Below are positions 3,805-18,532 of a stretch of 64,000 bases of DNA, one piece after another. Numbering within the stretch: the first letter of the stretch is position 1; the number at the start of each line of letters is the position of its first letter. The stretch lies in NCBI RefSeq assembly GCF_900106015.1, contig NZ_LT629797.1, positions 1,860,001-1,924,000 of the forward strand. Direction: 5' to 3'. The notes below the pieces were generated by a model. It ran no database searches, was not told the origin of the DNA, and saw only the letters and a program-made list of their open reading frames with translations. Origin of the DNA: Pseudomonas sihuiensis. GTDB taxonomy: Bacteria > Pseudomonadota > Gammaproteobacteria > Pseudomonadales > Pseudomonadaceae. The position numbers were made by a program, and so were the translations under genes.

Positions 3805-3820
3805 TTGACCGCTCGGTCAA
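3805..3820. promoter_or_regulatory. Putative RutR-like TetR operator (TTGACC-N4-GGTCAA)
   Basis: A perfect inverted repeat, TTGACCGCTCGGTCAA, 26 bp downstream of the GntR-type palindrome. It resembles the E. coli RutR site (TTGACCA-NN-TGGTCAA). A RutR-like regulator is encoded at 16903-17547. Confidence 0.6.
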
Positions 3821-3926
3821 CAACTTAGCCAAGAAGCACCACCGAAAACACCGCCTGCCTCAGAGAGCATTGTTCTTGCGCAAGGCTCTGGGCGGTACAC
3901 AACAAGAGAGATGAGGAGTACCCGCT

Positions 3927-5267
3927 GTGGAAAGCGTCAAACAAGAACAACACGCGAATCAACTGGCAAGAGGTGGCCTGCTCGACCGCTTCTTCAAACT
4001 GACCGAGCACCGCACCACCATCAAGACCGAGCTGCTGGCCGGCCTGACGACCTTCGTCACCATGGCCTACATCATCTTCGTCAATCCCAACATCATGGCC
4101 ACTGCCGGCATCGATCATGGCGCCGCCTTCGTCGCCACCTGCATCGGGGCGGCCCTGGGCTGCTTCCTGATGGGCCTGTACGCCAACTGGCCAGTGGGCC
4201 TGGCGCCGGGCATGGGCCTGAACGCGTTCTTCACCTACACCGTCGTCGGTGAAATGGGCTACAGCTGGCAGATCGCACTGGGCGCGGTGTTCATCTCCGG
4301 CGTGCTGTTCATGATCATGAGCCTGTCGAAGATCCGCGAATGGCTGCTCAACAGCATCCCGATGAGCCTGCGCTTCGCCATGGGTGCCGGGGTCGGCCTG
4401 TTCCTCGGCCTGATCGGTCTGAAGACCGCCGGGATCGTCGTCGACAGCCCGGCCACCCTATTGACCATGGGCTCGTTCAGTAACCCGTCGGCGCTACTCG
4501 CCGCCGTATGCTTCCTGATGATCGCCGTGCTCAGCCACCGCAACGTGTTTGGCGCCATCCTCTTTAGCATGCTCGGCGTGACTGCCACCGGCTGGGCACT
4601 CGGCCTGGTGGAATACGGTGGCCTGGTGTCGATGCCGCCGAGCCTGGCCCCGACCTTCCTGGCCATGGATATCGCCGGCGCGTTCAACGTGGCGATGATC
4701 AGCGTGATCCTGGCGTTTCTCTTCGTGAACATGTTCGACACCGCCGGCACCCTGATGGGCGTCGCCCACCGCGCCAACCTGGTAGATGAGGATGGCAAGA
4801 TCCAGAACCTGTCCAAGGCGCTGAAAGCCGACTCTACCTCGAGCGTTGTGGGCGCCATGGTCGGCTGCCCGCCGGTGACCAGCTACGTGGAAAGCGCTGC
4901 AGGCGTCGCCGCGGGTGGCCGTACCGGCCTGACCGCCATCACCGTCGGCCTGCTGTTCCTCGCGGCGATGTTCTTCGCCCCGCTGGCTGGCATGATTCCG
5001 GCCTACGCCACCGCGGGCGCGCTGATCTACGTAGCAATGCTGATGATGAGCGGCATGGCGCATATCGATTGGAAGGATCATACCGACACCATCCCGGCTA
5101 TCGTGACCGTGGTGATGATGCCGCTGACCTTCTCCATCGCCAACGGCATCGCCCTGGGGTTCCTCACCTACGCCACGCTGAAACTGCTGACCGGCCAGAG
5201 CGACAAGGTGTCGCTGAGCCTCTATGCGCTGTGCGTGATCTTCATCGCCAAGTTCGCCTTCCTCTGA
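3927..5267 (+). CDS. AzgA-type NCS2 purine permease (hypoxanthine/guanine/adenine)
   Basis: A 446-aa polytopic inner-membrane protein of the AzgA-like branch of the NCS2 family, which takes up adenine, guanine or hypoxanthine by proton symport. Family segments include FVTMAYIIFVNP near residue 42, GLAPGMGLNAFF near 90, FVNMFDTAGTLMG near 265 and the SVVGAMVGCPPVTSYVESAAG region near 305. The start is GTG at 3927, with GGAG about 9 bases upstream. Two palindromic operators (3769, 3805) precede it and a good terminator follows, so it is probably a single-gene unit induced with purine breakdown. The exact base specificity cannot be read from sequence. Confidence 0.9.
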   Translation: MESVKQEQHANQLARGGLLDRFFKLTEHRTTIKTELLAGLTTFVTMAYIIFVNPNIMATAGIDHGAAFVATCIGAALGCFLMGLYANWPVGLAPGMGLNAFFTYTVVGEMGYSWQIALGAVFISGVLFMIMSLSKIREWLLNSIPMSLRFAMGAGVGLFLGLIGLKTAGIVVDSPATLLTMGSFSNPSALLAAVCFLMIAVLSHRNVFGAILFSMLGVTATGWALGLVEYGGLVSMPPSLAPTFLAMDIAGAFNVAMISVILAFLFVNMFDTAGTLMGVAHRANLVDEDGKIQNLSKALKADSTSSVVGAMVGCPPVTSYVESAAGVAAGGRTGLTAITVGLLFLAAMFFAPLAGMIPAYATAGALIYVAMLMMSGMAHIDWKDHTDTIPAIVTVVMMPLTFSIANGIALGFLTYATLKLLTGQSDKVSLSLYALCVIFIAKFAFL

Positions 5268-5290
5268 CGGCAAACACCCCGCGCTGATCG

Positions 5291-5322
5291 AAGCCCCGGC
5301 CCTGTGCCGGGGCTTTTCGTTT
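5291..5322 (+). terminator. Rho-independent terminator of the NCS2 permease
   Basis: AAGCCCCGGC and GCCGGGGCTT form a hairpin followed by TTCGTTT, 24 bp past the permease stop. Confidence 0.85.
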
Positions 5323-5502
5323 GACCGTTCAATACCTCTTGTTGGCGCAAGGCAGCGGCCCAAGCGCCGGACCATGGGCATGTACTCAATACAGGCAGCA
5401 GCGGTTGCCAAGGCAAATCCGGCGGCGCGAGGGGCGTACAGAAACTGGCAGGCAAAGGGGCGATGGGGTGAATCGTCCGCGATGCATGAGACGCGGCAAT
5501 GC

Positions 5503-5664
5503 GTAGGCCGGGTTAGCGGCGCTGGGGGTCGTTATGGGGATCGCCACGCAACCTGGGCGCCGCGTAAGCCAACATTGCGGCGCGGCGGCAGACCGCCATG
5601 GTGGGTTACGGCGCTGGGGGTGGTGGTGTTTGCCTGATCCAGGTTCGCGCCTAACCCACTCTAC
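5503..5664. repeat. ~160-bp intergenic repeat, copy 2
   Basis: Starts GTAGGCCGGGTTAGCGGCGC and ends CCTAACCCACTCTAC, with an internal ATGGTGGGTTACGGCGC. Related in layout to 2198-2360. It occupies most of the 527-bp gap between the permease and uraH; no gene is seen there. Confidence 0.7.
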
Positions 5665-5701
5665 AAAAGCCGGTCAACAACACAGCCCTGAAACACAGCC
5701 C

Positions 5702-5728
5702 AAAAAAAAGCCCGCAGTGTGAGCGGGC
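5702..5728 (-). terminator. Rho-independent terminator of uraH
   Basis: Read on the minus strand, CGCCCGCTCACACTGCGGGC is followed by eight Ts, 67 bp past the uraH stop. Confidence 0.85.
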
Positions 5729-5794
5729 GTAAGGACTCAAACGAGTCTGAGGGTGACAAGCATTCGTCTGGCAGGCGTCTGGCCCGCCAGTCAC

Positions 5795-6148
5795 TCAGCT
5801 ACCGCGGTAGGTGGAGTAGCTGTAAGGAGAAATCAGTAGCGGCACGTGGTAGTGCTCCTGGCCGGCATCGATGCCGAAGCGCAGGACCACGACATCGAGA
5901 AATGCCGTATCCGGCAGTTTCACGCCACGGGCGCGGTAGTAGTCGCCAGCGTGGAAATGCAACTGGTAGACGCCCGTGCGGTAGTCATCACCCTGCAGCA
6001 CCGGCGCATCGCAACGGCCGTCGTGGTTGGTGGTAACGCTGTTGATCAGTTCCAGCTGCGCGCCTTCGACGCGGTACAGCTCGACCTTGATGTCACTCCC
6101 TGGGCAGCCGTGCGCGGCATCCAGTACATGTGTAGTCAAACGTCCCAT
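5795..6148 (-). CDS. uraH: 5-hydroxyisourate hydrolase (transthyretin-like)
   Basis: A 117-aa enzyme that hydrolyses 5-hydroxyisourate, the product of urate oxidation, to OHCU. The N-terminal motif LTTHVLD supplies a conserved His (H7), and the protein ends in the diagnostic SYSTYRGS, matching the family C-terminal YRGS signature; HYHVPLL supplies another conserved His. Length is typical of bacterial members. It is divergent from puuE; the shared 402-bp intergenic region has one TTGTRYACAA palindrome near each gene (6286, 6467). Confidence 0.96.
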   Translation of the reverse strand: MGRLTTHVLDAAHGCPGSDIKVELYRVEGAQLELINSVTTNHDGRCDAPVLQGDDYRTGVYQLHFHAGDYYRARGVKLPDTAFLDVVVLRFGIDAGQEHYHVPLLISPYSYSTYRGS

Positions 6149-6285
6149 GGGTCTCGGATGCCCGCGGCGCCTGGCGCCCTACGAACACCACACCTCCTCT
6201 ACTCTGTTGAAATCGGCTCGTCGCAATGCTCCGACGCAGTGGCAGGATAGCACGCAGATCGAATATAAAACATTTTTCCAATAAA

Positions 6286-6295
6286 TTGTACACAA
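6286..6295. promoter_or_regulatory. Putative GntR operator (TTGTACACAA)
   Basis: A perfect palindrome 138 bp upstream of uraH in the AT-rich divergent uraH/puuE region. It is identical to the site upstream of the GntR gene at 3437. Confidence 0.6.
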
Positions 6296-6466
6296 TAAAT
6301 CCAATTGAAATGCTATCCATGTACCAAACCTGATCACTGCTCACATCATCGCCAGCCAGCAACCACGGCATAACCAGCACGCATTGCTGACCACCTCGGC
6401 AATTTTTTCGCTGTGGCACACCGTAAAGAAAATGATGAAAAGTCGATTTACAAACGGCGACTAACT

Positions 6467-6476
6467 TTGTATACAA
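6467..6476. promoter_or_regulatory. Putative GntR operator (TTGTATACAA)
   Basis: A perfect palindrome 75 bp upstream of the puuE GTG start, so likely close to or within the promoter of the puuE-uraD-allA-puuD operon. Confidence 0.65.
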
Positions 6477-6550
6477 TTACTCATCCCGGTCGCGTAGCCG
6501 TCGATTACCCGGCACGCAGTGACCGCAACGTTCCAGATAGGAAGACTGCA

Positions 6551-7492
6551 GTGAACGCTGATTACCCACGCGATTTGATCGGCTACGGCGCAAACCCGCC
6601 CCACCCGCACTGGCCGGGCGATGCCCGCATCGCCCTATCCTTCGTGCTCAACTACGAAGAAGGCGGTGAACGCAACATTCTTCACGGGGACAAGGAGTCC
6701 GAGGCCTTCCTCTCCGAGATGGTCGCCGCTCAGCCGCTGCAGGGTCAGCGCAACCTGTGCATGGAGTCGCTCTACGAGTACGGCAGCCGCACCGGCGTCT
6801 GGCGCCTGCTCAACCTGTTCAAGAAGCACGACATCCCGCTGACCATCTTCGCCGTGGCCATGGCCGCCCAGCGTCACCCCGAGGTGATCCGCGAGATGGT
6901 CACCGCCGGGCACGAGATCTGCAGCCATGGCTATCGCTGGATCGATTACCAGAACATGGACGAGGCCACCGAGCGCGAGCACATGCTCGAGGCCATCCGC
7001 ATCCTCACCGAGCTGACTGGTGAACGCCCGCTGGGCTGGTATACCGGCCGCCTGGGCCCGAACACCCGACGCATCGTGCGCGAGGAAGGCGGTTTCCTCT
7101 ACGACTCCGACACCTACGACGACGACCTGCCCTACTGGGACCCTGCCAGCACGGCAGAGAAGCCGCACCTGGTGATCCCCTACACCCTGGACACCAACGA
7201 CATGCGCTTCACCCAGGTACAGGGCTTCAACAAGGGCGACGATTTCTTCGAATACCTCAAGGATGCCTTCGACGTGCTCTACGCCGAGGGTGAAGCCGGC
7301 GCACCGAAGATGCTGTCGATCGGCATGCACTGCCGCCTGCTCGGTCGCCCGGCGCGCCTGGCTTCGCTGGCGCGCTTCATCGACTACGTGAAGAGCCATG
7401 ACAAGGTCTGGTGCGCCCGCCGTGTCGACATCGCCAGGCATTGGCATGCCACCCACCCCTTCCGCGCGACCGAACAAGAGAGCCGCCCATGA
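6551..7492 (+). CDS. puuE: Allantoinase PuuE (polysaccharide-deacetylase fold)
   Basis: A 313-aa NodB-fold amidohydrolase that opens the allantoin ring to allantoate. The family start VNADYPRDLIGYGANPPHP is encoded from the GTG at 6551, preceded by AGGAAG. The NodB domain spans about residues 60-200, with HEICSHGYRWIDYQ near residue 122 holding conserved metal-site histidines, followed by GWYTGRLGPNTRRIV. It overlaps uraD by ATGA, indicating translational coupling. It is first in the puuE-uraD-allA-puuD operon, behind the operator at 6467. Confidence 0.94.
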   Translation: MNADYPRDLIGYGANPPHPHWPGDARIALSFVLNYEEGGERNILHGDKESEAFLSEMVAAQPLQGQRNLCMESLYEYGSRTGVWRLLNLFKKHDIPLTIFAVAMAAQRHPEVIREMVTAGHEICSHGYRWIDYQNMDEATEREHMLEAIRILTELTGERPLGWYTGRLGPNTRRIVREEGGFLYDSDTYDDDLPYWDPASTAEKPHLVIPYTLDTNDMRFTQVQGFNKGDDFFEYLKDAFDVLYAEGEAGAPKMLSIGMHCRLLGRPARLASLARFIDYVKSHDKVWCARRVDIARHWHATHPFRATEQESRP

Positions 7493-8004
7493 GCCGTTTC
7501 CAGACCCTGACCCCTTCCCAGCTGAGCCGCGACGCTTTCGTCGCAGCCTTCGCCGACATCTATGAGCACTCGCCCTGGGTCGCCGAGAAAGCCTATGACC
7601 TCGGCCTGGACGATAGCGTGGACGACATCGACAGGCTGCAGCAGCGCATGGCCGATATCCTCCTGTCCGCCAGTCATGAGGCGCAGCTGGCACTGATCAA
7701 CGCGCACCCGGACCTGGCCGGCAAGGCTGCAGTGCGTGGCGAACTGACCGCCTCCAGCACTGCCGAGCAGTCCGGCGCCGGCATCCACGAATGCACCGCC
7801 GAGGAGTTCGCCCGCTTCACCGAACTCAACGACGCCTACAAGGCCAAGTTCGGCTTCCCCTTCATCAAGGCCGTCAAGGGCAGCAACCGCCATCAGATCC
7901 TGGCCGCCTTCGAGGAGCGCATTCACAACACGCCGGAGCAGGAGTTCCAGACCGCCCTGGCCGAGATCAACAAGATCGCCATGTTCCGCCTGCAGCAACT
8001 GTAA
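7489..8004 (+). CDS. uraD: OHCU decarboxylase
   Basis: A 171-aa enzyme that decarboxylates 2-oxo-4-hydroxy-4-carboxy-5-ureidoimidazoline to S-allantoin, completing the urate step after PuuD and UraH. The family catalytic segment INAHPDLAGK (His near residue 67) and the later AEEFARFTELNDAYKAKFGF and KAVKG stretches are present. The ATG at 7489 overlaps the puuE stop. In the P. aeruginosa locus as I recall it, allantoicase lies between uraD and allA; here only 42 bp separate them. Confidence 0.95.
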   Translation: MSRFQTLTPSQLSRDAFVAAFADIYEHSPWVAEKAYDLGLDDSVDDIDRLQQRMADILLSASHEAQLALINAHPDLAGKAAVRGELTASSTAEQSGAGIHECTAEEFARFTELNDAYKAKFGFPFIKAVKGSNRHQILAAFEERIHNTPEQEFQTALAEINKIAMFRLQQL

Positions 8005-8046
8005 GCGCTGCAGCCCCCCCACCCGAACAGAACAAGTAGAACAGCC

Positions 8047-8550
8047 ATGCGTAGCCTGACCATCGAGCCCCTGAGCAAAGAAGCCTTCGCCCCTTTCGGT
8101 GACGTGATCGAAACCGACGGCAGCGACTTCTTCATGATCAACAACGGTTCCACCCGCCGCTATCACAAGCTGGCCACCGTGGAGACCGCACAGCCGGAGG
8201 ACCAGGCCATCATCAGCATCTTCAGCGCCGAAGCACTGGAGATGCCGCTGACCATCCGCATGCTGGAACGCCATCCGCTGGGCAGCCAGGCTTTCATTCC
8301 GCTGCTCGGCAACCCCTTTCTGATCGTGGTCGCGCCAGTTGGCGATGTACCTGTATCAGGGTCCGTCCGTGCCTTCCTCAGCAATGGCAGGCAGGGCATC
8401 AATTACCATCGCGGCGTCTGGCACCACCCGGTGCTGACGATCGAAAAGCGGGATGACTTCCTGGTGGTTGATCGCAGTGGTTCCGGCAACAACTGCGATG
8501 AGCATTTCTTCAATGAGGACGAGCTTCTTCTCCTCAACCCCCACCAATAA
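8047..8550 (+). CDS. allA: Ureidoglycolate lyase
   Basis: A 167-aa cupin-like enzyme (AllA family) that splits ureidoglycolate into glyoxylate and urea, linking purine breakdown to the gcl pathway encoded downstream. Family features include LSKEAFAPFGDVIE at the N-terminus, MLERHPLGSQAFIPL near residue 75 and GINYHRGVWHHPVL near residue 118, with the metal-binding histidine region. It is the third gene of the puuE operon, 42 bp after uraD and 47 bp before puuD. Confidence 0.94.
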   Translation: MRSLTIEPLSKEAFAPFGDVIETDGSDFFMINNGSTRRYHKLATVETAQPEDQAIISIFSAEALEMPLTIRMLERHPLGSQAFIPLLGNPFLIVVAPVGDVPVSGSVRAFLSNGRQGINYHRGVWHHPVLTIEKRDDFLVVDRSGSGNNCDEHFFNEDELLLLNPHQ

Positions 8551-8597
8551 GAGAAGCCCGGGGCTGGCGTGCCTATCCCGGGAAAGAGGTACAGATC

Positions 8598-9935
8598 GTG
8601 GAAGCACATTTCACCGAATGGCTAAACCTGGGCATCCGCTGGATCCATATGATCACCGGTATCGCCTGGATCGGCGCATCGTTCTATTTCGTCTGGCTGG
8701 AGAACAACCTCAACCGTAGCAATCCCCGTGAGGGCCTGTCGGGCGACCTCTGGGCGATTCACGGCGGCGGCATCTACCACCTGGAAAAGTACAAGCTGGC
8801 TCCGCCGAAAATGCCGGAGAACCTGCACTGGTTCAAATGGGAGGCCTACGCCACCTGGCTGTCGGGCGTCGCCCTGCTGCTGGTGGTGTACTACCTCAAC
8901 CCCAGCCTGTACCTGGTCAAGCCGGGCGTCGAGCTGTCCCCGGCAATGGGCATCGCCATCGGCCTCGGTTCCATGGCGATCAGCTATGTGATCTACCACT
9001 TCCTCTGCGATTCGCCGCTGGGTAAACGCCCGGCCCTGCTAGGCGCCGTGCTGTTCGTGCTGATCATCGCCGCCGCCTATGGCTTCAGCCAGATCTTCAG
9101 CGGCCGCGCGGCGTACATTCATGTCGGTGCGATCATCGGCACCATCATGGTCGGCAACGTGTTCTTCACCATCATGCCGGCCCAGCGCGCGCTGGTTAAG
9201 GCCATCGAAACCAACACTACGCCCGATCCGCTGCTGCCGGCCAAGGGCCTGCTGCGCTCGCGCCACAACAACTACTTCACCCTGCCGGTGCTGTTCATCA
9301 TGATCAGCAACCACTTCCCGAGCACCTACGGCAGCCAGTACAACTGGCTGATCCTGGCCGGTATCGCGATCCTGGCCGTGCTGGTGCGTCACTACTTCAA
9401 TACCCGCCACGACAGCAGCAAGTACGTCTGGACCCTGCCGGCCGCAGCCCTGGGCATGATCTGCCTGGCTTACGTCACCGGCCCGCAGACGAAATCGGTC
9501 AGCGCACCGGAAACGGCTCAAGCCCCGGCGATCAAGTACGCTCCCGTTCCTGCTACCGGCCGCCCTGGCACCCCCTCCACTACCAGCGAGCCTGCTGCAG
9601 AGGAAACCCAGGCAAAAGCCGATGCCAGCGAGGATTCAACCACTGCCGCTGACAGCGCGCCACCTGCTGCCAGCACCGATTTTGCCCAAGTCGAAAGCGT
9701 GATCCACGAGCGTTGCACCGTGTGCCACTCGTCGAGTCCCACTAGCCCGATGTTCAGCACCGCACCGGCCGGTTTCATGCTCGACACCCCGGAGCAGATG
9801 AAGGCGCAGGCAGCGAAGATCCACGCGCAAACCGTGGCCACGCAGATCATGCCGCTGGGCAACATCACCCAGATGACCCAGGACGAGCGCGACCTGATTG
9901 GCAGCTGGATCGCCAAAGGCGCTCAGATCAACTGA
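8598..9935 (+). CDS. puuD: Membrane urate hydroxylase PuuD with C-terminal cytochrome c domain
   Basis: A 445-aa membrane-bound urate oxidase that converts urate to 5-hydroxyisourate and is thought to pass electrons through its own haem to the respiratory chain. Residues 1-295 carry about eight membrane segments (WIHMITGIAWIGASFYFVWL at the start). A Pro/Ala/Thr-rich linker follows (about 300-360), then a cytochrome c domain with haem motif CTVCH at residues 373-377 and a Met-rich end (IMPLGNITQM) that could give the axial ligand. The start is GTG at 8598 behind AAAGAGG. It is the last gene of the puuE operon and is followed by two terminators. The c-type haem makes it a client of the ccm operon at 30-37 kb. 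Confidence 0.93.
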   Translation: MEAHFTEWLNLGIRWIHMITGIAWIGASFYFVWLENNLNRSNPREGLSGDLWAIHGGGIYHLEKYKLAPPKMPENLHWFKWEAYATWLSGVALLLVVYYLNPSLYLVKPGVELSPAMGIAIGLGSMAISYVIYHFLCDSPLGKRPALLGAVLFVLIIAAAYGFSQIFSGRAAYIHVGAIIGTIMVGNVFFTIMPAQRALVKAIETNTTPDPLLPAKGLLRSRHNNYFTLPVLFIMISNHFPSTYGSQYNWLILAGIAILAVLVRHYFNTRHDSSKYVWTLPAAALGMICLAYVTGPQTKSVSAPETAQAPAIKYAPVPATGRPGTPSTTSEPAAEETQAKADASEDSTTAADSAPPAASTDFAQVESVIHERCTVCHSSSPTSPMFSTAPAGFMLDTPEQMKAQAAKIHAQTVATQIMPLGNITQMTQDERDLIGSWIAKGAQIN

Positions 9936-9944
9936 TTGCCACAC

Positions 9945-9978
9945 ATGTCGCGCTCATGAGTGGGCGCGACATCTTTTT
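9945..9978 (+). terminator. Rho-independent terminator after puuD
   Basis: ATGTCGCGC and GCGCGACAT form a stem followed by CTTTTT, just past the puuD stop. Confidence 0.8.
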
Positions 9979-9986
9979 ACAGCCAT

Positions 9987-10027
9987 GAACCGCCGGCAGC
10001 GCAAGCTGACCGGCGGTTCAGTTTTTT
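9987..10027 (+). terminator. Second hairpin terminator after puuD
   Basis: GAACCGCCGG and CCGGCGGTTC form a stem followed by AGTTTTTT. The T tract runs directly into the GntR-type palindrome at 10026. Confidence 0.75.
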
Positions 10028-10035
10028 GTGCACAA
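10026..10035. promoter_or_regulatory. Putative GntR operator (TTGTGCACAA)
   Basis: A perfect 10-bp palindrome, a central-base variant of TTGTATACAA, 150 bp upstream of the NCS2 xanthine/urate permease. Confidence 0.55.
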
Positions 10036-10088
10036 TCCATAAATAAATTGTTTTTAACCATGTCCACAAGTTGTATAGTCGGCACATC

Positions 10089-10104
10089 CTGACCGATCGG
10101 ACAA
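10089..10104. promoter_or_regulatory. Putative RutR-like TetR operator (CTGACC-N4-GGACAA)
   Basis: CTGACCGATCGGACAA matches the TTGACC-N4-GGTCAA inverted repeat at 10 of 12 arm positions. It lies 81 bp before the NCS2 permease start. Confidence 0.45.
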
Positions 10105-10185
10105 TTTTTCGATCGATCGGAGCAGAGGTGCCGTGAAGCCTCGTGTAAGCCCATGACCATATAAAAACAACTGGCAGGCTATGAC

Positions 10186-11694
10186 ATGACCACAGACCGC
10201 AACACCCAAGCCCCAGCTGCGCCTTCCGGCAACAGCGACCTGATCTATCAGCTGGACGACACGCCAGCTTTCGCCCCTGCCATCTTCGCGGCGCTACAGC
10301 ATGTGCTGGCCAGCTTCGTCGGCATCATCACCCCTACCCTGATCGTCGGTAGTGCGCTGGGCCTCGGCGCCCATGTGCCTTATCTGGTGAGCATGGCGCT
10401 GTTCGTTTCCGGCCTCGGCACCTTCGTCCAGGCCAAACGCATCGGCCCGATCGGGTCCGGCCTGTTGTGCCTGCAGGGCACCAGCTTCGGTTTTCTCAGC
10501 GTGATTCTCAGCGCCGGCTTCATCGTCAAAGGGCGCGGCGCCAGCGAGGAGGAGATACTCGCCACGCTGTTCGGCATCTGCTTCTGCGCCGCCTTCGTCG
10601 AGATTGCCTTCAGTCAGTTCATCAACAAGCTGCGCAAGGTGATCACCCCGGTGGTGACCGGCACCATCATCTGCCTGATGGGGTTGTCGCTGATCAAGGT
10701 GGGCATGACCGATCTGGCCGGCGGCTATGGCGCGCCGGACCTCGGCGCCCTGCACCACCTGGCCCTCGGCGGCCTGGTGCTGGGCACCATCGTCCTGCTC
10801 AACCGCGCCTCCTCGCAGGTGCTGCGCCTGTCGGCGGTTATCATCGGCCTGACCCTGGGCTTCGCGGTCGCCTGGTTCACCGGCCGGGTGGACTTCGCCA
10901 ACATGGCCGAGGTACCGCTGATCAGCGTGCCGCAACCATTCAAGTACGGCTTCGGCTTCGACTGGATCGCCTTCGTGCCGATCGCGGTGATCTTCCTGAT
11001 CACCCCACTGGAAACCGCAGGCGACCTGACCGCCAACTCGATCATCTCCAAACAGCCGGTCAAAGGTCCGCTGTACATGCGCCGGATCAAATCCGGGGTG
11101 CTGGCCGATGGCTGCAACTCGGCGGTCGCTGCGATGTTCAACAGCCTGCCGATGACCACCTTCAGCCAGAACAACGGGGTAATCCAGCTCACCGGCGTGG
11201 CCAGCCGTCATGTGGGTTTCTACATCGCCAGCATCCTGGTGCTGCTCGGCCTGTTCCCGGTGGTAGGCGCGGTGCTGCAGCTGATGCCCAAGCCGGTGCT
11301 CGGTGGCGCCACCCTGATCATGTTCGGCACCGTCGCGGTGGCCGGTATCAAGATTCTCAGCGAAGCCGGCCTGCACCGCCGCAACGTACTGATCGTGGCC
11401 ATTTCCCTGGGCCTGGGCCTGGGTGTAGCCGGCGTACCGGACGTGCTCTCGCACATGCCGGACGTACTGAAGAACATCTTCGGCTCTCCGATCACCATCG
11501 GAGCCTTCAGCGCCATTCTGCTCAATCTCTTCCTGCCGGATGATCCGCAACTGGAAGAAGAGGATGAAAGCGAATACGACCCCGAGGCGCACCTGCACAC
11601 CGTGCTGCAGAACCGCCCGGACGATGCAGCCATCGACGACAACAGCCTCAAGACTCTCAGCCGCGACCTCGACCCGGCCGCCCGACCAAGCTGA
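10186..11694 (+). CDS. NCS2 (NAT family) xanthine/uric acid permease
   Basis: A 502-aa nucleobase:cation symporter-2 protein with 12-14 predicted membrane spans. It carries the NAT signature (QNNGVIQLTG near residue 328), the FITPLETAGDLTAN-type segment near residue 270 and QGTSFGF near residue 100. The uracil-xanthine permease family transports xanthine, urate or uracil; the location behind puuD and two purine-type operators favours xanthine or urate. The ~45-residue acidic C-terminal tail is cytoplasmic. The next gene, a Tsx-like outer membrane channel, may be co-transcribed. Confidence 0.9.
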   Translation: MTTDRNTQAPAAPSGNSDLIYQLDDTPAFAPAIFAALQHVLASFVGIITPTLIVGSALGLGAHVPYLVSMALFVSGLGTFVQAKRIGPIGSGLLCLQGTSFGFLSVILSAGFIVKGRGASEEEILATLFGICFCAAFVEIAFSQFINKLRKVITPVVTGTIICLMGLSLIKVGMTDLAGGYGAPDLGALHHLALGGLVLGTIVLLNRASSQVLRLSAVIIGLTLGFAVAWFTGRVDFANMAEVPLISVPQPFKYGFGFDWIAFVPIAVIFLITPLETAGDLTANSIISKQPVKGPLYMRRIKSGVLADGCNSAVAAMFNSLPMTTFSQNNGVIQLTGVASRHVGFYIASILVLLGLFPVVGAVLQLMPKPVLGGATLIMFGTVAVAGIKILSEAGLHRRNVLIVAISLGLGLGVAGVPDVLSHMPDVLKNIFGSPITIGAFSAILLNLFLPDDPQLEEEDESEYDPEAHLHTVLQNRPDDAAIDDNSLKTLSRDLDPAARPS

Positions 11695-12631: not shown

Positions 12632-12681
12632 CCCCTGCCGCAACGCACTTGGCCGACGTCGGGTAGGGACAGCGGCCGGGT

Positions 12682-12719
12682 AAAAAGGGGGATGGGCGCT
12701 CGCGCCCTTCCCCCTTTTT
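12682..12719. terminator. Rho-independent terminator after the Tsx-like gene
   Basis: AAAAAGGGGGATGGGCG and CGCCCTTCCCCCTTTTT form a long, nearly perfect stem ending in Ts, usable on either strand. The 518-bp gap 12632-13149 holds this terminator, a GTGCGC-type repeat near 12768-12789 and four operator-like sites; no gene is seen. Confidence 0.85.
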
Positions 12720-12911
12720 CTTTGCGCCGAAAGATGACCGGTGCGCACAGCCACCTACCTCGGGCCGTAGGGTGCGCCGTGCGCACCGCCTTTATCAAAC
12801 CGGCTTGAATCGCCGCACCAACCCAGCGCTCCGCAATCAGACCAGGCACCGCATCGGTGCAGAATCGGGCCGCCTATCAGGCTTCTTCATCAACGACTTG
12901 CAAGCATGCAA

Positions 12912-12927
12912 CTGACCGCAAGGTCAA
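12912..12927. promoter_or_regulatory. Putative RutR-like TetR operator (CTGACC-N4-GGTCAA)
   Basis: CTGACCGCAAGGTCAA matches the TTGACC-N4-GGTCAA pattern at 11 of 12 arm positions, 223 bp before the NCS1 permease start. Confidence 0.5.
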
Positions 12928-12953
12928 GTTTTTGATCACAATATTTCTATTTT

Positions 12954-12963
12954 TTGTGTGCAA
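12954..12963. promoter_or_regulatory. Degenerate GntR-type site (TTGTGTGCAA)
   Basis: Keeps the outer TTGT and CAA of the palindrome but is imperfect in the centre. First of three such sites upstream of the NCS1 permease. Confidence 0.35.
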
Positions 12964-12996
12964 TTTGTCCGAAAGCCATATTCAGCAACGTATTTT

Positions 12997-13006
12997 CTGT
13001 GTACAA
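12997..13006. promoter_or_regulatory. Putative GntR operator (CTGTGTACAA)
   Basis: Matches TTGTATACAA at 8 of 10 positions, 144 bp before the NCS1 permease. Confidence 0.4.
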
Positions 13007-13042
13007 GACAGTCAGGTTCCCACCGAAATACTGTCGAAATGG

Positions 13043-13052
13043 CTGTATACAT
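13043..13052. promoter_or_regulatory. Putative GntR operator (CTGTATACAT)
   Basis: Matches TTGTATACAA at 8 of 10 positions with an intact GTATAC core, 98 bp before the NCS1 permease. Confidence 0.45.
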
Positions 13053-13149
13053 CGATTCAGTCATGACGCGAATACAAAATCGGAACGGAACCTGCAGACA
13101 AATCTCCTCATACGCCGCCGCGGCGCAAGAACAAAACTGGGAGCTGTCC

Positions 13150-14616
13150 ATGTCCAACACCGAAGATTTTCGCATCAAGAACATCGATCCCTCACTACAC
13201 AACGAGGATCTCGCGCCACTGGCTCCCGAGAAGCGCACCTGGGGCTGGTTCGAGATCTTCAACGTCTGGTCGAACGACATTCAGAGCCTGTTCGGCTATA
13301 CCCTGGCGGCGACGCTGTTCATCTCCTACGGGCTCAATGGCTGGGCAGTGCTGGCCGGTATCGTCCTCGCCGGCTGCATCGTCATGGGCCTGGTGCAGCT
13401 GACCGGCAAGCCCAGCGTCAAGTACGGCATCCCCTTCCCGGTGTTCGCCCGCGCCAGCATGGGCGTGCGCGGTGCCAACTTCCCTGCGCTGGTGCGTGGC
13501 ATCGTCGCCATCTTCTGGTACGGCGTGCAGACCTACTTCGCCTCCACCGCCGTGGCGCTGCTGCTCAACTCGCTGTTGCAGCCGCAAGACCCGGCCGTAT
13601 ACATGGGGCTGACCGCCATCGGCTGGCTGTCCTACGTGATCGTTTGCCTATTTCAGGTCGGTCTGTTCGTCTGCGGCATGAGCTGGATCACCCGCTTCCT
13701 CAACTGGGCCGGGCCGCTGGTCTATGTGGTGATGATCGCCCTGATGGGTCTGATCTGGTATCAGGCCGGCCCGAGTCTGCTCAGCGAGCTGGGCAACATC
13801 TTCAGTGGCACGGGCGAGTACAAGGCCGGCCCGGTGGCCGCGTTCTTCGCCGTGGTCGGCACCATGGTCGCCTACTTCGCCGCCGTGGTGATCAACTACG
13901 GCGACTTCGCCCGCTTCGTCAAAAGCGAGAAGCAGATGACCATCGGCAACTTCCTCGGCCTACCGGTGAGCCTGGCATTCTTCTCGCTGATCGCCCTGGT
14001 GATCACTGCAGGCACCGTGGTGGTGTTCGGCGAGACGCTGACCAACCCGACCGATATCGTTGCCCGGGTAGACAACCTGACCCTGACCATCATCGCCGCG
14101 CTGACCTTCTTCGCCGCGACCGTGGGCATCAACCTGGTGGCCAACTTCATCCCGCCAGCCTATGACCTGGCCAACCTGGCGCCGGCACACATCAGCGCCC
14201 GTACCGGTGGCTTCATCACTGCCGGCATCGCCTTCTTCATCGGCGCGCTGTGGGTGGCTTTCATCAGCAACGTCGGCATCGCCGCCTTCGTCGACACCCT
14301 GGGCGCCGTGCTGGCGCCGCTGTACGGCATCATCGTCGTCGACTATTACCTGGTGCGCCAGCGCAAGCTCGATCTGCAGCAGCTGTTCAGCGCGGAGGTC
14401 GGCTCGGCTTACTACTTCGACGGCGGCTGGAACCGCAAGGCGCTGATCGCCTTTGCCATCGCCTCGGTGTTTTCCGTCGCCTCGGTGTGGGCGCCCGTTC
14501 TTAGCCAGCTGTCGGGTTATTCCTGGCTGCTCGGCGCCCTGCTCGGCGCGCTACTGCACTACGGCCTAATGCACGGCCAGGCGCAGGCGCTGAAACGCGC
14601 CAACGCCAGTATCTGA
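13150..14616 (+). CDS. NCS1-family permease (allantoin/cytosine/purine type)
   Basis: A 488-aa nucleobase:cation symporter-1 protein with about 12 membrane spans. It shows the family N-terminus (RTWGWFEIFNVWSNDIQSLFG), GIPFPVFARASMGVRGAN near residue 97 and the late LYGIIVVDYYLVR near residue 393. NCS1 members import allantoin, hydantoins, cytosine or purines; the context favours allantoin or a purine, but this cannot be settled from sequence. I chose the ATG at 13150 behind GGGAGC; an in-frame extension to 12958 would run through the operators and lacks family similarity. Confidence 0.88.
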   Translation: MSNTEDFRIKNIDPSLHNEDLAPLAPEKRTWGWFEIFNVWSNDIQSLFGYTLAATLFISYGLNGWAVLAGIVLAGCIVMGLVQLTGKPSVKYGIPFPVFARASMGVRGANFPALVRGIVAIFWYGVQTYFASTAVALLLNSLLQPQDPAVYMGLTAIGWLSYVIVCLFQVGLFVCGMSWITRFLNWAGPLVYVVMIALMGLIWYQAGPSLLSELGNIFSGTGEYKAGPVAAFFAVVGTMVAYFAAVVINYGDFARFVKSEKQMTIGNFLGLPVSLAFFSLIALVITAGTVVVFGETLTNPTDIVARVDNLTLTIIAALTFFAATVGINLVANFIPPAYDLANLAPAHISARTGGFITAGIAFFIGALWVAFISNVGIAAFVDTLGAVLAPLYGIIVVDYYLVRQRKLDLQQLFSAEVGSAYYFDGGWNRKALIAFAIASVFSVASVWAPVLSQLSGYSWLLGALLGALLHYGLMHGQAQALKRANASI

Positions 14617-14620
14617 ACGA

Positions 14621-15460
14621 TCACGGACGAGACGAAGCCGGCGCCTGTGCGCCGGCTTTTTCTTTCTGCCGCTCGAGAAAGTCCACCTTCCACTGTTCCA
14701 GACCGATGTAGTCGCTATCCAGGTTGGCCTCGACGCGATAGCTCGCCTTGAGCGCGGCAACCTGAGCCGAGCGCTCGGCAAGAAAGCGATCGAAACGCGC
14801 GATCAGCTGTGGATGACGAGCGCTGGACAGGTGAAAGCTGCCGCGGGTATGCGGCAACTTGGGATCAAAGACCAAAGCACCCGGTCGCGCCCGGATGTTG
14901 TCCAGATAATGGGTGGCCACCACCACGTTGAAGTAGGCGCCATCAGTGTCCTGCTTCAACGCCAGGCGAATCATCTGGCGTAGATCATCGCTGTAGCTCA
15001 GCTGGATCTGCCCACTGTCGATGGCATCTTCGTATCCACGCGGCGTCCAGCCCTGCACCATGGCCAGACGACGGATGTTCTCCAACGCCTGGCCCTGCCG
15101 CTGCGGCGCCACCAGCACGCCGTCGACGTAATCGACCACCGCCTGGCTGTAGTGCAAGGTCATGCCTGCTTTCTGCGCGCCGGCCCAGTACGGGCTGTCG
15201 GGATACTTGAGATCGATCTCGCCACGCTGCAGGGCAGGCAGCAACTGATCCACGGGTAGCGCCTTGTAGCTCAGGCTGATACCGCTGTCGGCAGCGAAAG
15301 CGTCCAGCACCTCACGAGCGAAGCCACGGTACTGACCTTCGCCATCGAGGCTGTAGTGCGGGGCGAATGGCAGGTCCTCGACGCCGACTACATAGGTCTG
15401 CGCCAGGGCAGCGGGCGTCAGCATAATGGTGGAAAACAGGCACAGTCGTACGGGCTGCAT
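14621..15460 (-). CDS. Periplasmic solute-binding protein (SBP family 3)
   Basis: A 279-aa secreted protein with a signal peptide (residues 1-20, cleavage near ALA-QTYVVG) and the bilobal SBP_bac_3 layout: VGVEDLPFAPHYSLDGEGQYRGFAREVLDAF, then a second lobe from about residue 110. The ATG at 15460 has an excellent AAGGAGG. Such proteins bind polar amino acids or related solutes for ABC transport, but no permease or ATPase lies next to it, so it may be an orphan receptor. No purine operator precedes it. Its C-terminal codons are shared with the terminator of the convergent NCS1 permease. Confidence 0.8.
   Translation of the reverse strand: MQPVRLCLFSTIMLTPAALAQTYVVGVEDLPFAPHYSLDGEGQYRGFAREVLDAFAADSGISLSYKALPVDQLLPALQRGEIDLKYPDSPYWAGAQKAGMTLHYSQAVVDYVDGVLVAPQRQGQALENIRRLAMVQGWTPRGYEDAIDSGQIQLSYSDDLRQMIRLALKQDTDGAYFNVVVATHYLDNIRARPGALVFDPKLPHTRGSFHLSSARHPQLIARFDRFLAERSAQVAALKASYRVEANLDSDYIGLEQWKVDFLERQKEKAGAQAPASSRP
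14635..14667 (+). terminator. Rho-independent terminator of the NCS1 permease, inside the end of the opposing gene
   Basis: AAGCCGGCGC and GCGCCGGCTTTTTC form the hairpin and T tract 18 bp after the permease stop. It overlaps the last codons of the convergent binding-protein gene (stop at 14621). Confidence 0.85.
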
Positions 15461-15547
15461 TGAAAGCCTCCTTATTGTTGTTTTGAGATTGCAGTGAGGG
15501 CTTAGTGTCGCGTCAGGCATTAGATGTCGGTCAGGCGTCAGGCCTGA

Positions 15548-15621
15548 GTAGGAGCCCCGCCTCGGGGCGAAGCTTTTCAGTCGTCTGAACCGGCCCATGC
15601 GCCGCGGGGCGCGGCTCCTAC
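15548..15621. repeat. REP-like inverted repeat
   Basis: Arms GTAGGAGCCCCGCC...GGGCGCGGCTCCTAC. Same family as 2410-2473. Confidence 0.7.
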
Positions 15622-15694
15622 AAGGACTCTGCAGCCTGCTGTAATTGATGTGGCGGTCTCGGCCCATAGGCAACAGATTATTCGTCTCGCGACA

Positions 15695-16690
15695 CTAACC
15701 GCCGGTCATGCTCATGAAGCGCACCACCTGCACCTGCTCGTCGGTGGCGAAATGGTGCCGCTCGGGCTTCAGACGCAACGCCTCGATCAGTGCCTGGCGT
15801 AGGCGCTCGCTGTCACCCGGATGCGCGCGCAGCAGGCGCTTGAGATCCAGCGCGTTGTCGTGGCCGAGACAGAGCACCAGCTTGCCCTCGGCGGTGACAC
15901 GCACACGGTTGCAGTCGCCGCAGAAGTTGTGGCTGTGCGGCGAGATGAAACCTACCTGGGTCTGCGTACCGACCACCTGCCAGTAGCGCGATGGCCCGCC
16001 AGTGACCTTGCTGCTACGCACCAGTGCATGGCGCTGCTCGATGCGCTGGCGCACCTCATCGCTGGAGCAGAAGGTCTGCTCGCGGCTGTGGCTGACCACG
16101 CTGCCCAGCGGCATTTCCTCGATGAAGCTGATGTCCAGCCCGCGCTCGACGGCAAACTCGACCAGATCCAGCACCTCATCGTCGTTGCGCCCGCTCTGCA
16201 CCACACTGTTGAGCTTGATCCTGTCGAAGCCTGCGGCACGCGCGGCGTCGATGCCGGCCAGCACCTGGTCGAGCTTGTCACGTCGGGTGAAGGCGGCGAA
16301 GCGCTCGCGCTGCAGTGAATCCAGGCTGATGTTCAAGCGCCGCACACCCGCCGCGCGCAACGGCGCGGCCATCTCCGCCAGTTGCGAGCCATTGGTGGTA
16401 ATGGCCAGGTCATCCAGCTCGTCACGCTCACCCAGGCGCTGCAACAGGCTCAGCAGATTCTTGCGTACCAATGGCTCGCCACCGGTGATACGAATACGCC
16501 GCACGCCCAGCCCGATAAAGGCGTCGGCCACGGCATACAGCTCTTCCAGGCTGAGAATCTGCGCACGCGGCGCGAACTGCATGTCTTCACTCATGCAGTA
16601 GGTGCAGCGAAAATCGCAGCGATCGGTCGCCGACAAACGCAGGTAGGTGATGCGCCGACCGAATGGGTCGACGAGCTGATGGGTATTCAC
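15695..16690 (-). CDS. moaA: GTP 3',8-cyclase MoaA
   Basis: A 331-aa radical-SAM enzyme for the first step of molybdenum cofactor synthesis, forming 3',8-cyclo-GTP. The SAM-binding cluster cysteines are C25, C29 and C32 (DRCDFRCTYC). The C-terminal cluster lies in FCGDCNRVRV...LVLCLG, and the protein ends in the conserved GG. Its presence inside a purine-degradation island makes sense because xanthine dehydrogenase needs Moco. A GntR-type palindrome and a TetR-type half-palindrome lie upstream (16772, 16786), shared with the divergent TetR gene. It is probably a pathway-dedicated paralogue; a housekeeping moaA is expected elsewhere. Confidence 0.95.
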   Translation of the reverse strand: MNTHQLVDPFGRRITYLRLSATDRCDFRCTYCMSEDMQFAPRAQILSLEELYAVADAFIGLGVRRIRITGGEPLVRKNLLSLLQRLGERDELDDLAITTNGSQLAEMAAPLRAAGVRRLNISLDSLQRERFAAFTRRDKLDQVLAGIDAARAAGFDRIKLNSVVQSGRNDDEVLDLVEFAVERGLDISFIEEMPLGSVVSHSREQTFCSSDEVRQRIEQRHALVRSSKVTGGPSRYWQVVGTQTQVGFISPHSHNFCGDCNRVRVTAEGKLVLCLGHDNALDLKRLLRAHPGDSERLRQALIEALRLKPERHHFATDEQVQVVRFMSMTGG

Positions 16691-16771
16691 GGTGGGTCTC
16701 CTGCAGCGTCACGCGCCGAGACTTTTTGTCATGGATAACGCTATGCGCGATAGAAACAGAAAAGCGAATTC

Positions 16772-16781
16772 TTGTATACAG
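16772..16781. promoter_or_regulatory. Putative GntR operator (TTGTATACAG)
   Basis: Matches the cluster palindrome at 9 of 10 positions, between divergent moaA (82 bp away) and the TetR gene (121 bp away). Confidence 0.55.
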
Positions 16782-16785
16782 AAAT

Positions 16786-16801
16786 TTGACCCGAGAGTCA
16801 G
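16786..16801. promoter_or_regulatory. Putative RutR-like TetR operator (TTGACC-N4-AGTCAG)
   Basis: TTGACCCGAGAGTCAG has a perfect left arm and a 4/6 right arm. It lies 5 bp from the GntR-type site and upstream of the TetR gene itself, suggesting autoregulation. Confidence 0.4.
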
Positions 16802-16902
16802 TTAAACGCTGAGCAGCCCGTGGCCGCTGGCTTGAGCCTCGCGCAAAGCCGGTGCTACCATGCCCGACCGCCGCCCGGCGGCAGAGCAAACCACAGGGCC
16901 TT

Positions 16903-17547
16903 ATGACCAGCATTCGCGAGCGTAACAAAGAGCTCATCCTGCGCGCAGCCAGCGAAGAGTTCGCCGACAAGGGCTTCGCCGCCACCAAGACCAGCGACAT
17001 TGCGGCCAAGGCAGGCCTGCCCAAGCCCAACGTCTACTACTACTTCAAGTCCAAGGAAAACCTCTACCGCGAGGTCCTGGAAAGCATCATCGAGCCACTG
17101 CTGGCCGCCTCTGCCCCCTTCAACCAGCCGGGCCATCCGAGCGAAGTGCTGACCGCCTACATCCGCTCGAAGATCCGCATCTCCCGTGAACTGCCGCATG
17201 CCTCCAAGGTATTTGCCAGCGAGATCATGCACGGTGCGCCGCACCTGTCGCCGGAACAGACCGAACAGCTCAACGCCCAGGCCAAGCACAACATCGCCTG
17301 CATCCAGCGCTGGATCGATCAGGGCCTGATGGCGAAAGTCGACCCGCATCACCTGCTGTTCAGCATCTGGGCAGCGACCCAGACCTACGCCGACTTCGAC
17401 TGGCAGATCTCCACCGTCACCGGCAAGGCCAGCCTGGACGACGCCGACTACGAAGCCGCCGCGCAGACCATCATTCGCCTGGTGCTCAAAGGCTGTGATG
17501 TCAGCCCGATGCCGTCGATGGCCTCCGAACTGGTGACCAGCGCCTAG
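16903..17547 (+). CDS. RutR-like TetR-family regulator
   Basis: A 214-aa regulator with an N-terminal TetR HTH (about residues 10-55, with TKTSDIAAKAGLPKPNVYYYFKSK) and a C-terminal domain resembling E. coli RutR: YIRSKIRISRELPHASKVF, then EIMHGAP and FSIWAATQTYADFDWQ. RutR senses uracil/thymine and controls pyrimidine and purine genes. The ATG at 16903 is chosen because family similarity begins there. It sits between moaA and gcl, and RutR-like palindromes lie in front of five neighbouring units, so I infer control of this purine island. The ligand here is unproven. Confidence 0.85.
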   Translation: MTSIRERNKELILRAASEEFADKGFAATKTSDIAAKAGLPKPNVYYYFKSKENLYREVLESIIEPLLAASAPFNQPGHPSEVLTAYIRSKIRISRELPHASKVFASEIMHGAPHLSPEQTEQLNAQAKHNIACIQRWIDQGLMAKVDPHHLLFSIWAATQTYADFDWQISTVTGKASLDDADYEAAAQTIIRLVLKGCDVSPMPSMASELVTSA

Positions 17548-17586
17548 GCGACTGTTCCGTTGTAGGGTTTCCCGACATCCGTCACC

Positions 17587-17677
17587 GTAGGGCGTGCATA
17601 CGCCGAGCGCTCGAGCGCAGTACGCCATTTCCGGGTTTTGGCGGACTGCTCGCTGGCGCTCGCTGAGTCCGCCCTAC
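17587..17677. repeat. GTAGGGCG...CGCCCTAC inverted repeat
   Basis: Ends GTAGGGCGTGCATACGCC and GAGTCCGCCCTAC, with a GCTCGCTGGCGCTCGCTGAG core. It fills part of the TetR/GlcG-like gap (17548-17826), where no gene is seen. Confidence 0.6.
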
Positions 17678-17725
17678 GCCTGCCCTGAGATTTCACGTCC
17701 AGCTTCGGCCTTCAGACCACATCCC

Positions 17726-17811
17726 GTAGGCCGTACTCGCGCAGCAGTACGCCGTTGCAATGGCTGACTGTTCGCGTCGCTACGAGCGGCCGGCGATCCG
17801 GTCAGCCCTAC
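17726..17811. repeat. GTAGGCCGTACTCGCG repeat
   Basis: Begins GTAGGCCGTACTCGCGCAGC and ends GTCAGCCCTAC. A fragment with the same GTACTCGCG-AGCAGTAC core occurs at about 37189-37210. Confidence 0.55.
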
Positions 17812-17826
17812 GACTGCTCTGGAACC

Positions 17827-18261
17827 CTACACCCCCGCATCCGCCTTCAGGCCGAGCGACTCCAGCGCACTCACCGCACACTGCTCGTCGATATCCGAGG
17901 TGTCGCCGGTGATGCCGACGGCGCCGATCACTTCGCCGCGTTCATCGCGAATCAATACCCCTCCCGGCGCGGGTACCAGGCTGCCTTGAGCCAGGTTGTT
18001 CACCGCCCCGATAAAGGCCGGGCGCTGCTGCGCGTCGGCGGCGATCAGGCGCGAGCCCTTGCCCAGGGCCAGCGCGCCCCAGGCCTTGCCGATGGCGATC
18101 TGCGGGCGCAGCAGGCTGGCGCCGTCCTCGCGCTGCAGGCTGATCAGATGCCCGCCAGCATCCAGTACGGCGACGGTCAGCGGCGCCGCCTTTATCTCGC
18201 GGCCCACGGCCAGCGCGCGGTTACCGATGGCGTTGGCGGTTTGCAGGTTCAAGTTGCTCAT
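17827..18261 (-). CDS. GlcG/HbpS-family (DUF336) protein
   Basis: A 144-aa protein of the GlcG/HbpS family, with the conserved VAVLDAGGHLISLQREDGA near residue 29 and the LVPAPGGVLIRDERGEVIGAVGITGD stretch near residue 93. Family members bind haem or accompany glycolate, diol or aromatic catabolism genes; no enzymatic role is established. It is divergent from gcl across a 335-bp regulatory gap, and TTGTATACAT lies 150 bp upstream. Placement beside glyoxylate carboligase echoes its association with glycolate/glyoxylate metabolism, but its job here is unknown. Confidence 0.8.
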   Translation of the reverse strand: MSNLNLQTANAIGNRALAVGREIKAAPLTVAVLDAGGHLISLQREDGASLLRPQIAIGKAWGALALGKGSRLIAADAQQRPAFIGAVNNLAQGSLVPAPGGVLIRDERGEVIGAVGITGDTSDIDEQCAVSALESLGLKADAGV

Positions 18262-18410
18262 GCTGGTGACTCCTGAAGTGACGAAGGGAACGAAACACCC
18301 GGAGCGAAACCGGCACTGCGCACGCCGACAGCCCTAGGCAATCCAAAGCTCGCCCTCACTATCCCACCAGAAACAAAAAATTCAACCACTACATACAATA
18401 TTATTTTTTA

Positions 18411-18420
18411 TTGTATACAT
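18411..18420. promoter_or_regulatory. Putative GntR operator (TTGTATACAT)
   Basis: 9 of 10 matches, in an AT-rich stretch 150 bp upstream of the GlcG-like gene. The 335-bp gap 18262-18596 holds this and two further operators (18517, 18561); no gene is seen. Confidence 0.55.
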
Positions 18421-18516
18421 TAATCGCGACACATCTCTTCGCTTGCACTGCCAACCCCGTCAAACGGGCGTTTCAAAAGAATTTGGCCCAGGCGACAGGC
18501 TGCATCGGAAAAAATG

Positions 18517-18532
18517 TTGACCGCGAAGTCAT
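18517..18532. promoter_or_regulatory. Putative RutR-like TetR operator (TTGACC-N4-AGTCAT)
   Basis: TTGACCGCGAAGTCAT has a perfect left arm and a 4/6 right arm, 64 bp before gcl. Confidence 0.4.

Follow-up and report, generated by a model that had tools for sequence, protein, structure and literature searches.

Which protein reads the second palindrome of the Pseudomonas sihuiensis purine cluster, and to which signal does it respond? The stretch in question, 64,000 nucleotides of contig NZ_LT629797.1 (positions 1,860,001 to 1,924,000; the window), contains five copies of TTGACC-N4-GGTCAA. A first-pass annotation had described them as lying near TTGTATACAA-type sites upstream of two NCS2 permeases, an NCS1 permease, a TetR gene and gcl, and had proposed dual control of these genes, with a RutR-like protein encoded at 16903 as one regulator. 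From a comparison with related genomes, the palindrome, a putative TetR-type site (T site) best written YTGACY-N4-RGTCAR, is probably the operator of the 16903 protein, which would repress xdhABC(-guaD), purine uptake and moaA, acting together with a UgmR-type repressor of the GntR family and with xanthine as its likely ligand.

The palindrome and the xdhA tandem

All five palindromes (at 3805, 10089, 12912, 16786 and 18517; Table 1) are present as described. Counted against TTGACC-N4-GGTCAA, the copy at 3805 has no mismatch, that at 12912 has one and the other three have two each. The genes downstream are those claimed, with 16786 also preceding the divergent moaA, and each palindrome has a TTGTATACAA-type neighbour at a measured gap of 4–53 bp, the neighbours at 10026 and 12954 carrying two mismatches themselves. 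Bit scores were obtained with a symmetrised matrix of 42 distinct sites from the xdhA promoters of 30 genomes, none of them from the window. The top five matches of this matrix in the 64 kb are exactly the five sites (19.1, 18.8, 18.1, 11.9 and 11.5 bits), the sixth reaching only 6.1 bits, and a Markov null predicts 1.1 sites of at least 8 bits. Each of the five lies between genes, and 20% of this stretch is intergenic. Sites with up to three mismatches number 55 in the window against 20.3 expected. The whole genome (5.48 Mb) holds six sites with at most one mismatch, three of them inside the purine cluster (P = 1.5e-6, the region being chosen afterwards), and 12 exact copies of YTGACY-N4-RGTCAR, five of which fall in the 23-kb interval bounded by xdhA and gcl (P = 1.0e-9). 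Chance palindromes were considered and rejected; the palindromes are real and conserved.

The strongest copy of the motif is a tandem pair upstream of xdhA (xanthine dehydrogenase) at genome positions 1855538 and 1855561, outside the window and about 4.4 kb before its start. We found xdhA in 32 of 36 genomes (the own one and 35 of the same genus) and read 30 upstream regions, leaving out G003 and G034. All 30 carry at least one YTGACY-N4-RGTCAR site with at most one mismatch, 29 of them as a tandem with a distance of 23–24 bp, and none carries a TTGTATACAA site with up to two mismatches. The second T site of the pair begins with TTGACC, which is also the proposed -35 element (TTGACC-17/18-TAGATT or TAAATT in most); this and all other -35 and -10 elements were proposed by reading the sequence. 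The exact tandem occurs once each in 87 of 119 genomes of the genus, the reversed control pattern in 0 of 119, and all 30 fetched tandems precede xdhA, by 58–123 bp. In a class-wide draw it was present in 2 of 229 genomes, namely the window's own and one from another genus of the same family, again before xdhA. Judged from these promoters, xdhA would be the main conserved target and carries T sites only, with no GntR-type site, so that the TetR protein would be first of all a regulator of xanthine dehydrogenase. Activation at xdhA was rejected because the second operator covers the -35 element, and a -35 element as the whole explanation of the motif was rejected because at xdhA and ncs2a the dyads persist although their centres vary.

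Putative target promoters across the genus

The first-pass annotation had suggested a genome-wide motif scan and had taken poor conservation in related species as a point against itself. The matrix and tandem scans place the motif before purine genes, and conservation holds, for example at ncs2a (12/12) and xdhA (30/30). For a survey of all targets we counted T sites of at least 9 bits within 300 bp, using distinct upstream regions of at least 250 bp and genes of at least 60% identity (hence n = 29 for xdhA). Such sites precede xdhA (29/29), ncs2a (12/12), the NCS1 permease gene (6/8) and moaA (14/19), as well as uraH/puuE (10/23), ncs2b (2/7), tetR (17/89), gcl (15/91) and guaD (1/8). None was present upstream of Tsx (0/10) or in the control upstreams of hyi (0/88), glxR (0/85), ttuD (0/60), puuD (0/31) and sbp (0/16), together 0/280. 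GntR-type sites with at most one mismatch were found at xdhA in 0/29, at ncs2a in 12/12, at puuE in 23/23 and at gcl in 80/91 cases. By these sites the promoters would fall into three classes and not two: those of the TetR protein only (xdhA), those of both regulators (permeases, moaA/tetR and, in this lineage, gcl) and those of the GntR protein only (uraH/puuE in this lineage). The earlier idea of two signals for transport and the glyoxylate branch and one for urate breakdown fits the promoters of this lineage and misses the class represented by xdhA. Similarly, dual control is supported by T sites beside GntR-type sites at several promoters, with conserved pairing (ncs2a 12/12, ncs2b 7/7), but it describes neither the main target, which lies outside the window with T sites only, nor most gcl promoters, few of which have the dyad (12/91).

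All 12 ncs2a promoters are built alike, with a TTGC-type -35, the GntR site in the spacer, a CATAAT -10 and the T site downstream, the start-to-start offset of the two sites being 34–36 bp; 30 of 31 UgmR-type loci were read, of which 18 have no ncs2a inside the fetched stretch. PA1519, whose position ncs2a occupies, is described as a hypoxanthine/guanine importer (PMC11633122). Among the relatives of ncs2b the best T match lies 63–64 bp from a GntR-like site in 7/7 cases and scores 3.1–11.2 bits (at least 9 in 2/7); the 10089 site is weak yet conserved in position.

At gcl of this lineage the T site lies over the -35 element and spacer, followed by the -10 TAGAAT and a GntR site downstream, and its first half doubles as the -35 (TTGACC-18-TAGAAT). 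That this site is merely a -35 element and no operator keeps a considerable chance, although clearly below even, as most gcl promoters without the dyad also have TTGACC here and as the site scores well under those of xdhA. In the 12 clade members, however, TTGACC and the right-half T and C never change, R and G hardly do, and the variation falls in N4 and the remainder of the spacer. A dyad of at least 9 bits at -78 to -81 was found in 12 of 91 distinct upstreams, and elsewhere mostly just the -35 half is left. As read from these promoters, the gcl T site is lineage-specific, and dual control does not extend to gcl generally. The gcl copies in L272, L273 and L274 (G022, G020 and G024), that of G024 being a second copy, have neither a GntR-type nor a T site upstream.

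The absence of a good T site at uraH/puuE, as stated earlier, holds for the window (-1.5 bits at 6387). Elsewhere in the genus this intergenic region has a weak site of at least 5 bits in 19/23 and of at least 9 bits in 10/23 loci. In the comparison of window positions 6286–6476 with 23 relatives most keep this weak site, CTGACCNNNCRGGCAR, whose right half invariably has G instead of T, and it is decayed in the window's lineage. It could be a low-affinity operator or the site of another protein.

The RutR-like regulator and its proposed partner

The 16903 protein shares the TetR_N and TetR_C_3 (PF08362) domains with RutR, and E. coli RutR is its nearest PDB match by sequence (3loc, 8.8e-40). 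RutR also takes ranks 1–8 (TM 0.56–0.61) with the AlphaFold model, which is weak (mean pLDDT 70.3, pTM 0.63) and supporting only. The likeness of the palindrome to the E. coli RutR site was confirmed as well: across 10 kb surrounding the E. coli rut genes the xdhA-derived matrix picks the rutA-rutR intergenic site as best match (12.6 bits, the next 6.1). By these features the protein is RutR-like, but it does not appear to be RutR itself. It stays below the cut-offs of the curated RutR models (TIGR03613 176.1 vs 368 bits, NF011584 157.6 vs 230 bits) and falls into a clade apart from E. coli RutR (100/99), while same-genus proteins of G008, G022 and G023 (L300, L301 and L305) cluster together with E. 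coli RutR (100/100), in a tree of 35 rows out of 125 distinct sequences in which L299 and some other rows are long and unsurely placed.

In E. coli RutR uracil lies between W167 and W77 with contacts to Q171, Q179' and, via water, Y97, and DNA binding requires K52 and K62 (PMC10891134). Among 103 distinct relatives of the 16903 protein K52, K62, Y97, W167, Q171 and Q179 are invariant, position 172 is always Thr, and position 77 is Ile in 79 and Leu in 24 and never Trp. The complete W77/W167 sandwich was therefore found in none of the 103, while other RutR-like proteins keep W77 in 17 of 18 cases. By these tests the protein is not RutR, and one would therefore look first to ligands other than uracil and thymine.

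The proposed partner, encoded at 2565, combines GntR and FCD domains with the sites at gcl and puuE mentioned above, the features sought for UgmR. According to PMC12694930, UgmR of P. aeruginosa binds upstream of gcl and PA1513-PA1518 and is relieved by urate, not by allantoin. The TetR gene co-occurs with xdhA: all 32 genomes with xdhA have a tetR match of at least 77% identity (that of G002 being located, its sequence not read), G001, G013 and G028 have neither gene, and one genome has a stop-bearing tetR without xdhA (Fisher 1.7e-5, kinship not corrected). The last genome, G014 (L306 5681-6115), is also without the GntR gene and gcl, and the stop in its tetR is in frame. G026 has tetR and xdhA with the T pair, while neither the GntR gene nor gcl is matched at the thresholds applied, and because it keeps the pair the T sites would be independent of the GntR partner.

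Proposed regulation and alternatives

In the mechanism we propose, a dimer of the 16903 protein on the two tandem operators over the -35 element would repress xdhABC(-guaD), and the same repressor would act at the hypoxanthine/guanine-type permease ncs2a from a site just past the -10, in the start region. Repression would thus occur by covering the -35 element at xdhA and gcl and the start region at ncs2a. The repressor would also control NCS1, moaA and its own gene, the xanthine-type permease weakly, and gcl in this lineage. The UgmR-type protein, urate-released in P. aeruginosa, would hold uraH/puuE and share the permeases, moaA/tetR and gcl, and the shared promoters would open fully only with both repressors off. 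At ncs2a the GntR site would sit in the promoter core with the T site downstream, an order that is reversed at gcl. An oxypurine would release the 16903 protein, most likely xanthine, since this is what xanthine dehydrogenase consumes and guanine deaminase makes, and since it contains the pyrimidine-2,4-dione ring bound by the retained residues; the loss of W77 would open one face of the pocket to the larger ring. As xanthine and urate are substrate and product of xanthine dehydrogenase, the shared promoters would then receive two signals.

The same operator and protein could instead respond to allantoin, which would explain an induction of gcl that UgmR cannot. PMC12694930 reports that allantoin induces Pgcl and that UgmR is relieved by urate and not by allantoin, and it puts PA1504 forward as a possible regulator that is being studied; the T dyad is present at gcl in this lineage. 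Nevertheless we regard allantoin as unlikely. The most conserved target, xdhA, acts upstream of urate, two steps before allantoin, the gcl dyad at -78 to -81 is confined to the few upstreams given above, and the retained pocket residues should bind the uracil ring, which is part of xanthine but not of allantoin.

Plain RutR function, with uracil or thymine as ligand and the pyrimidine state coupled to purine breakdown, seems quite improbable. E. coli RutR entries head the PDB matches both by sequence and by fold, the DNA motif is the same, and gcl-hyi-glxR is listed among the E. coli RutR targets in PMC6790063, but W77 is lost and H172 replaced by T in 103/103 relatives, the clade is separate while E. 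coli RutR has proteins of three Pseudomonas genomes in its own group, the score of 176.1 bits stands against a cut-off of 368, and there are no rut genes in the neighbourhood of the window. A RutR-like paralog encoded at genome position 3046032 might bind the T sites, alone or together with the 16903 protein, but this is very improbable: the paralog shares K52, N54, Y57, Y58 and K62, and in other families (L295, L302) strong T sites occur where W77-keeping RutR-like proteins adjoin a permease or channel gene, but T sites are absent from promoters of the paralog type (best score -9.4 to 6.5 bits at five loci) and the type occurs in G001, G013 and G028, which have neither xdhA nor a 16903 ortholog.

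Several observations weigh against the xanthine-responsive 16903 protein as reader of the motif. A second RutR-like protein, the paralog, is encoded in the genome, with a T site of 15.5 bits 6 kb away before an 8-oxoguanine deaminase gene. The exact tandem is missing in 32 of 119 genomes; among the eight of these that were examined, four lack xdhA and four have a mismatched or single site. tetR has a T site in just 17 of 89 distinct upstreams, and autoregulation is therefore not seen outside the moaA-tetR arrangement; within it, the T site in 14/19 moaA upstreams speaks for the proposal. A ChIP-seq study of P. aeruginosa lists PA1504 among motility regulators, not with purine genes (PMC13086498). 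Finally, the genome total of the motif is no higher than that of the reversed control pattern (exact motif 12 vs control 9), in 7 of 12 genomes the control is the more frequent of the two, and at two mismatches the control outnumbers the motif genome-wide (586 vs 262). Per-genome totals were dropped as evidence; because the control is as frequent, site counts prove nothing, and the evidence consists of location and conservation.

Repression of xanthine dehydrogenase and purine uptake by a xanthine-responsive 16903 protein may be part of a wider picture, which we put forward tentatively and at somewhat less than an even chance: a genus-wide RutR relative would have been re-tuned to xanthine by losing one of the two tryptophans that sandwich uracil, with the RutR motif kept, would serve as dedicated repressor of xanthine dehydrogenase via a unique tandem, and would form a two-input gate with the urate-sensing UgmR, whose arrangement at the hypoxanthine/guanine permease would be mirrored at gcl of one lineage.

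Features of the window and further sites

Table 1: Sites, promoter elements and genes discussed (window coordinates; mm, mismatches).
Feature	Position	Strand	Remarks
GntR/FCD regulator in UgmR (PA1520) position	2565..3332	-	PF07729, PF00392; name rests on gene order and site
Proposed ncs2a promoter TTGCAT-16-CATAAT	3760..3787	+	from sequence; TTGC and CATAAT kept in 12/12 aligned loci
UgmR/GntR-type site TTGTATACAA	3769..3778		in ncs2a -35/-10 spacer; 12/12 loci
T site TTGACCGCTCGGTCAA	3805..3820		0 mm, 19.1 bits; 18 bp downstream of proposed ncs2a -10; kept 12/12
ncs2a, NCS2 permease in PA1519 position	3927..5267	+	PF00860
Decayed counterpart of weak genus-wide site, CTGACCACCTCGGCAA	6387..6402		between uraH and puuE; 3 mm, -1.5 bits
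GntR-type site TTGTGCACAA	10026..10035		2 mm
Weak T site CTGACCGATCGGACAA	10089..10104		2 mm, 11.5 bits; upstream of pbuX-type NCS2 permease
ncs2b, xanthine-permease (pbuX) type NCS2 permease	10186..11694	+	TIGR03173 433.9 bits vs cut-off 414.15
T site CTGACCGCAAGGTCAA	12912..12927		1 mm, 18.8 bits; upstream of NCS1 permease; 6/8 relatives at least 9 bits
GntR-type site TTGTGTGCAA	12954..12963		2 mm
NCS1 permease	13147..14616	+	PF02133; allantoin permease model 253.3 bits, below cut-off 620
moaA (molybdenum cofactor, needed by xanthine dehydrogenase)	15695..16690	-	TIGR02666 376.7 bits vs cut-off 284.05
GntR-type site TTGTATACAG	16772..16781		4 bp from T site; at most 1 mm in 12/19 moaA upstreams
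T site TTGACCCGAGAGTCAG	16786..16801		2 mm, 18.1 bits; divergent moaA-tetR intergenic; 14/19 moaA upstreams at least 9 bits
RutR-like TetR-family regulator, 214 aa	16903..17547	+	PF08362 209.1 bits; PF00440 61.7 bits
Second UgmR-type site TTGTATACAT	18411..18420		upstream of gcl
T site TTGACCGCGAAGTCAT	18517..18532		2 mm, 11.9 bits; first half also proposed gcl -35
Proposed gcl -10 TAGAAT	18541..18546	+	invariant in 12 clade members
UgmR-type site TTGTATACAA	18561..18570		downstream of gcl -10
gcl, glyoxylate carboligase	18597..20372	+	TIGR01504 1185.5 bits vs cut-off 711.2

Further T sites were seen outside the cluster. In the own genome the site at 3052709 (L346 1610; 15.5 bits) lies about 100 bp before the 8-oxoguanine deaminase gene (704 bits, cut-off 532), follows nucleoside ABC-transporter genes and is 6 kb from the second RutR-like gene; it may be a further target. 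A 21-bit site at 645861 (L343) precedes a gene for a FadL-type outer membrane transporter. The sites CTGACAAAAAAGTCAA (L197 7267) and CTGACAAAAAGGTCAA (L202 14050), with 16.3 and 15.1 bits, are located about 15 bp after ttuD and before pykF in two genomes, and none is found there in the window. In two other families of the order (L295 8250 and 8423, L302 3085) W77-keeping RutR-like genes with strong T sites stand beside an NCS2 permease gene or a channel-like gene (Tsx-like by eye). L050, L072 and L096, titled Pseudomonas viridiflava and Pantoea, show clusters typical of other Pseudomonas and are probably mislabelled.

Comparison with known systems

XdhR of Streptomyces, a TetR protein, and the XdhR/HucR-type MarR regulators repress xanthine dehydrogenase or urate genes, and they belong to other subfamilies with other operators. 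We found no description of T sites such as these in the literature, a search which left out the RegPrecise tables and supplements, where a prior prediction is possible, and a search on RutR with xanthine in Pseudomonas returned nothing. RutR regulons were described for 68 genomes of 13 groups in PMC5343134, whose main text gives no details for these genes.

The UgmR (PA1520) regulon of P. aeruginosa resembles the present one in that its GntR protein adjoins the permease and guaD (PMC12694930); the difference is that it explains neither xdhA, where no such site was seen, nor the second palindrome. PA1504 has the same type of gene neighbourhood as the 16903 protein, to which we liken it by neighbourhood and not by sequence; PMC12694930, of December 2025, names it as possible regulator behind the allantoin induction of gcl, outside its SELEX set. 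Our proposal would supply a putative regulon, operator and ligand for the TetR protein left open there, and a candidate mechanism by which xanthine dehydrogenase is controlled throughout Pseudomonas.

The gcl operon is among the listed targets of E. coli RutR (PMC6790063, PMC10163214), yet with the xdhA-derived matrix there is no T site directly upstream of E. coli gcl. With E. coli RutR (rutA-rutR, carAB) the 16903 protein has the TetR_C_3 domain, the DNA motif, K52/K62 and most uracil-contact residues in common, whereas it forms its own clade, has W77 and H172 changed and would target xanthine dehydrogenase and purine permeases instead of rut. It may be an example of a family in which the DNA motif stays the same and the ligand has probably changed from pyrimidines to purines.

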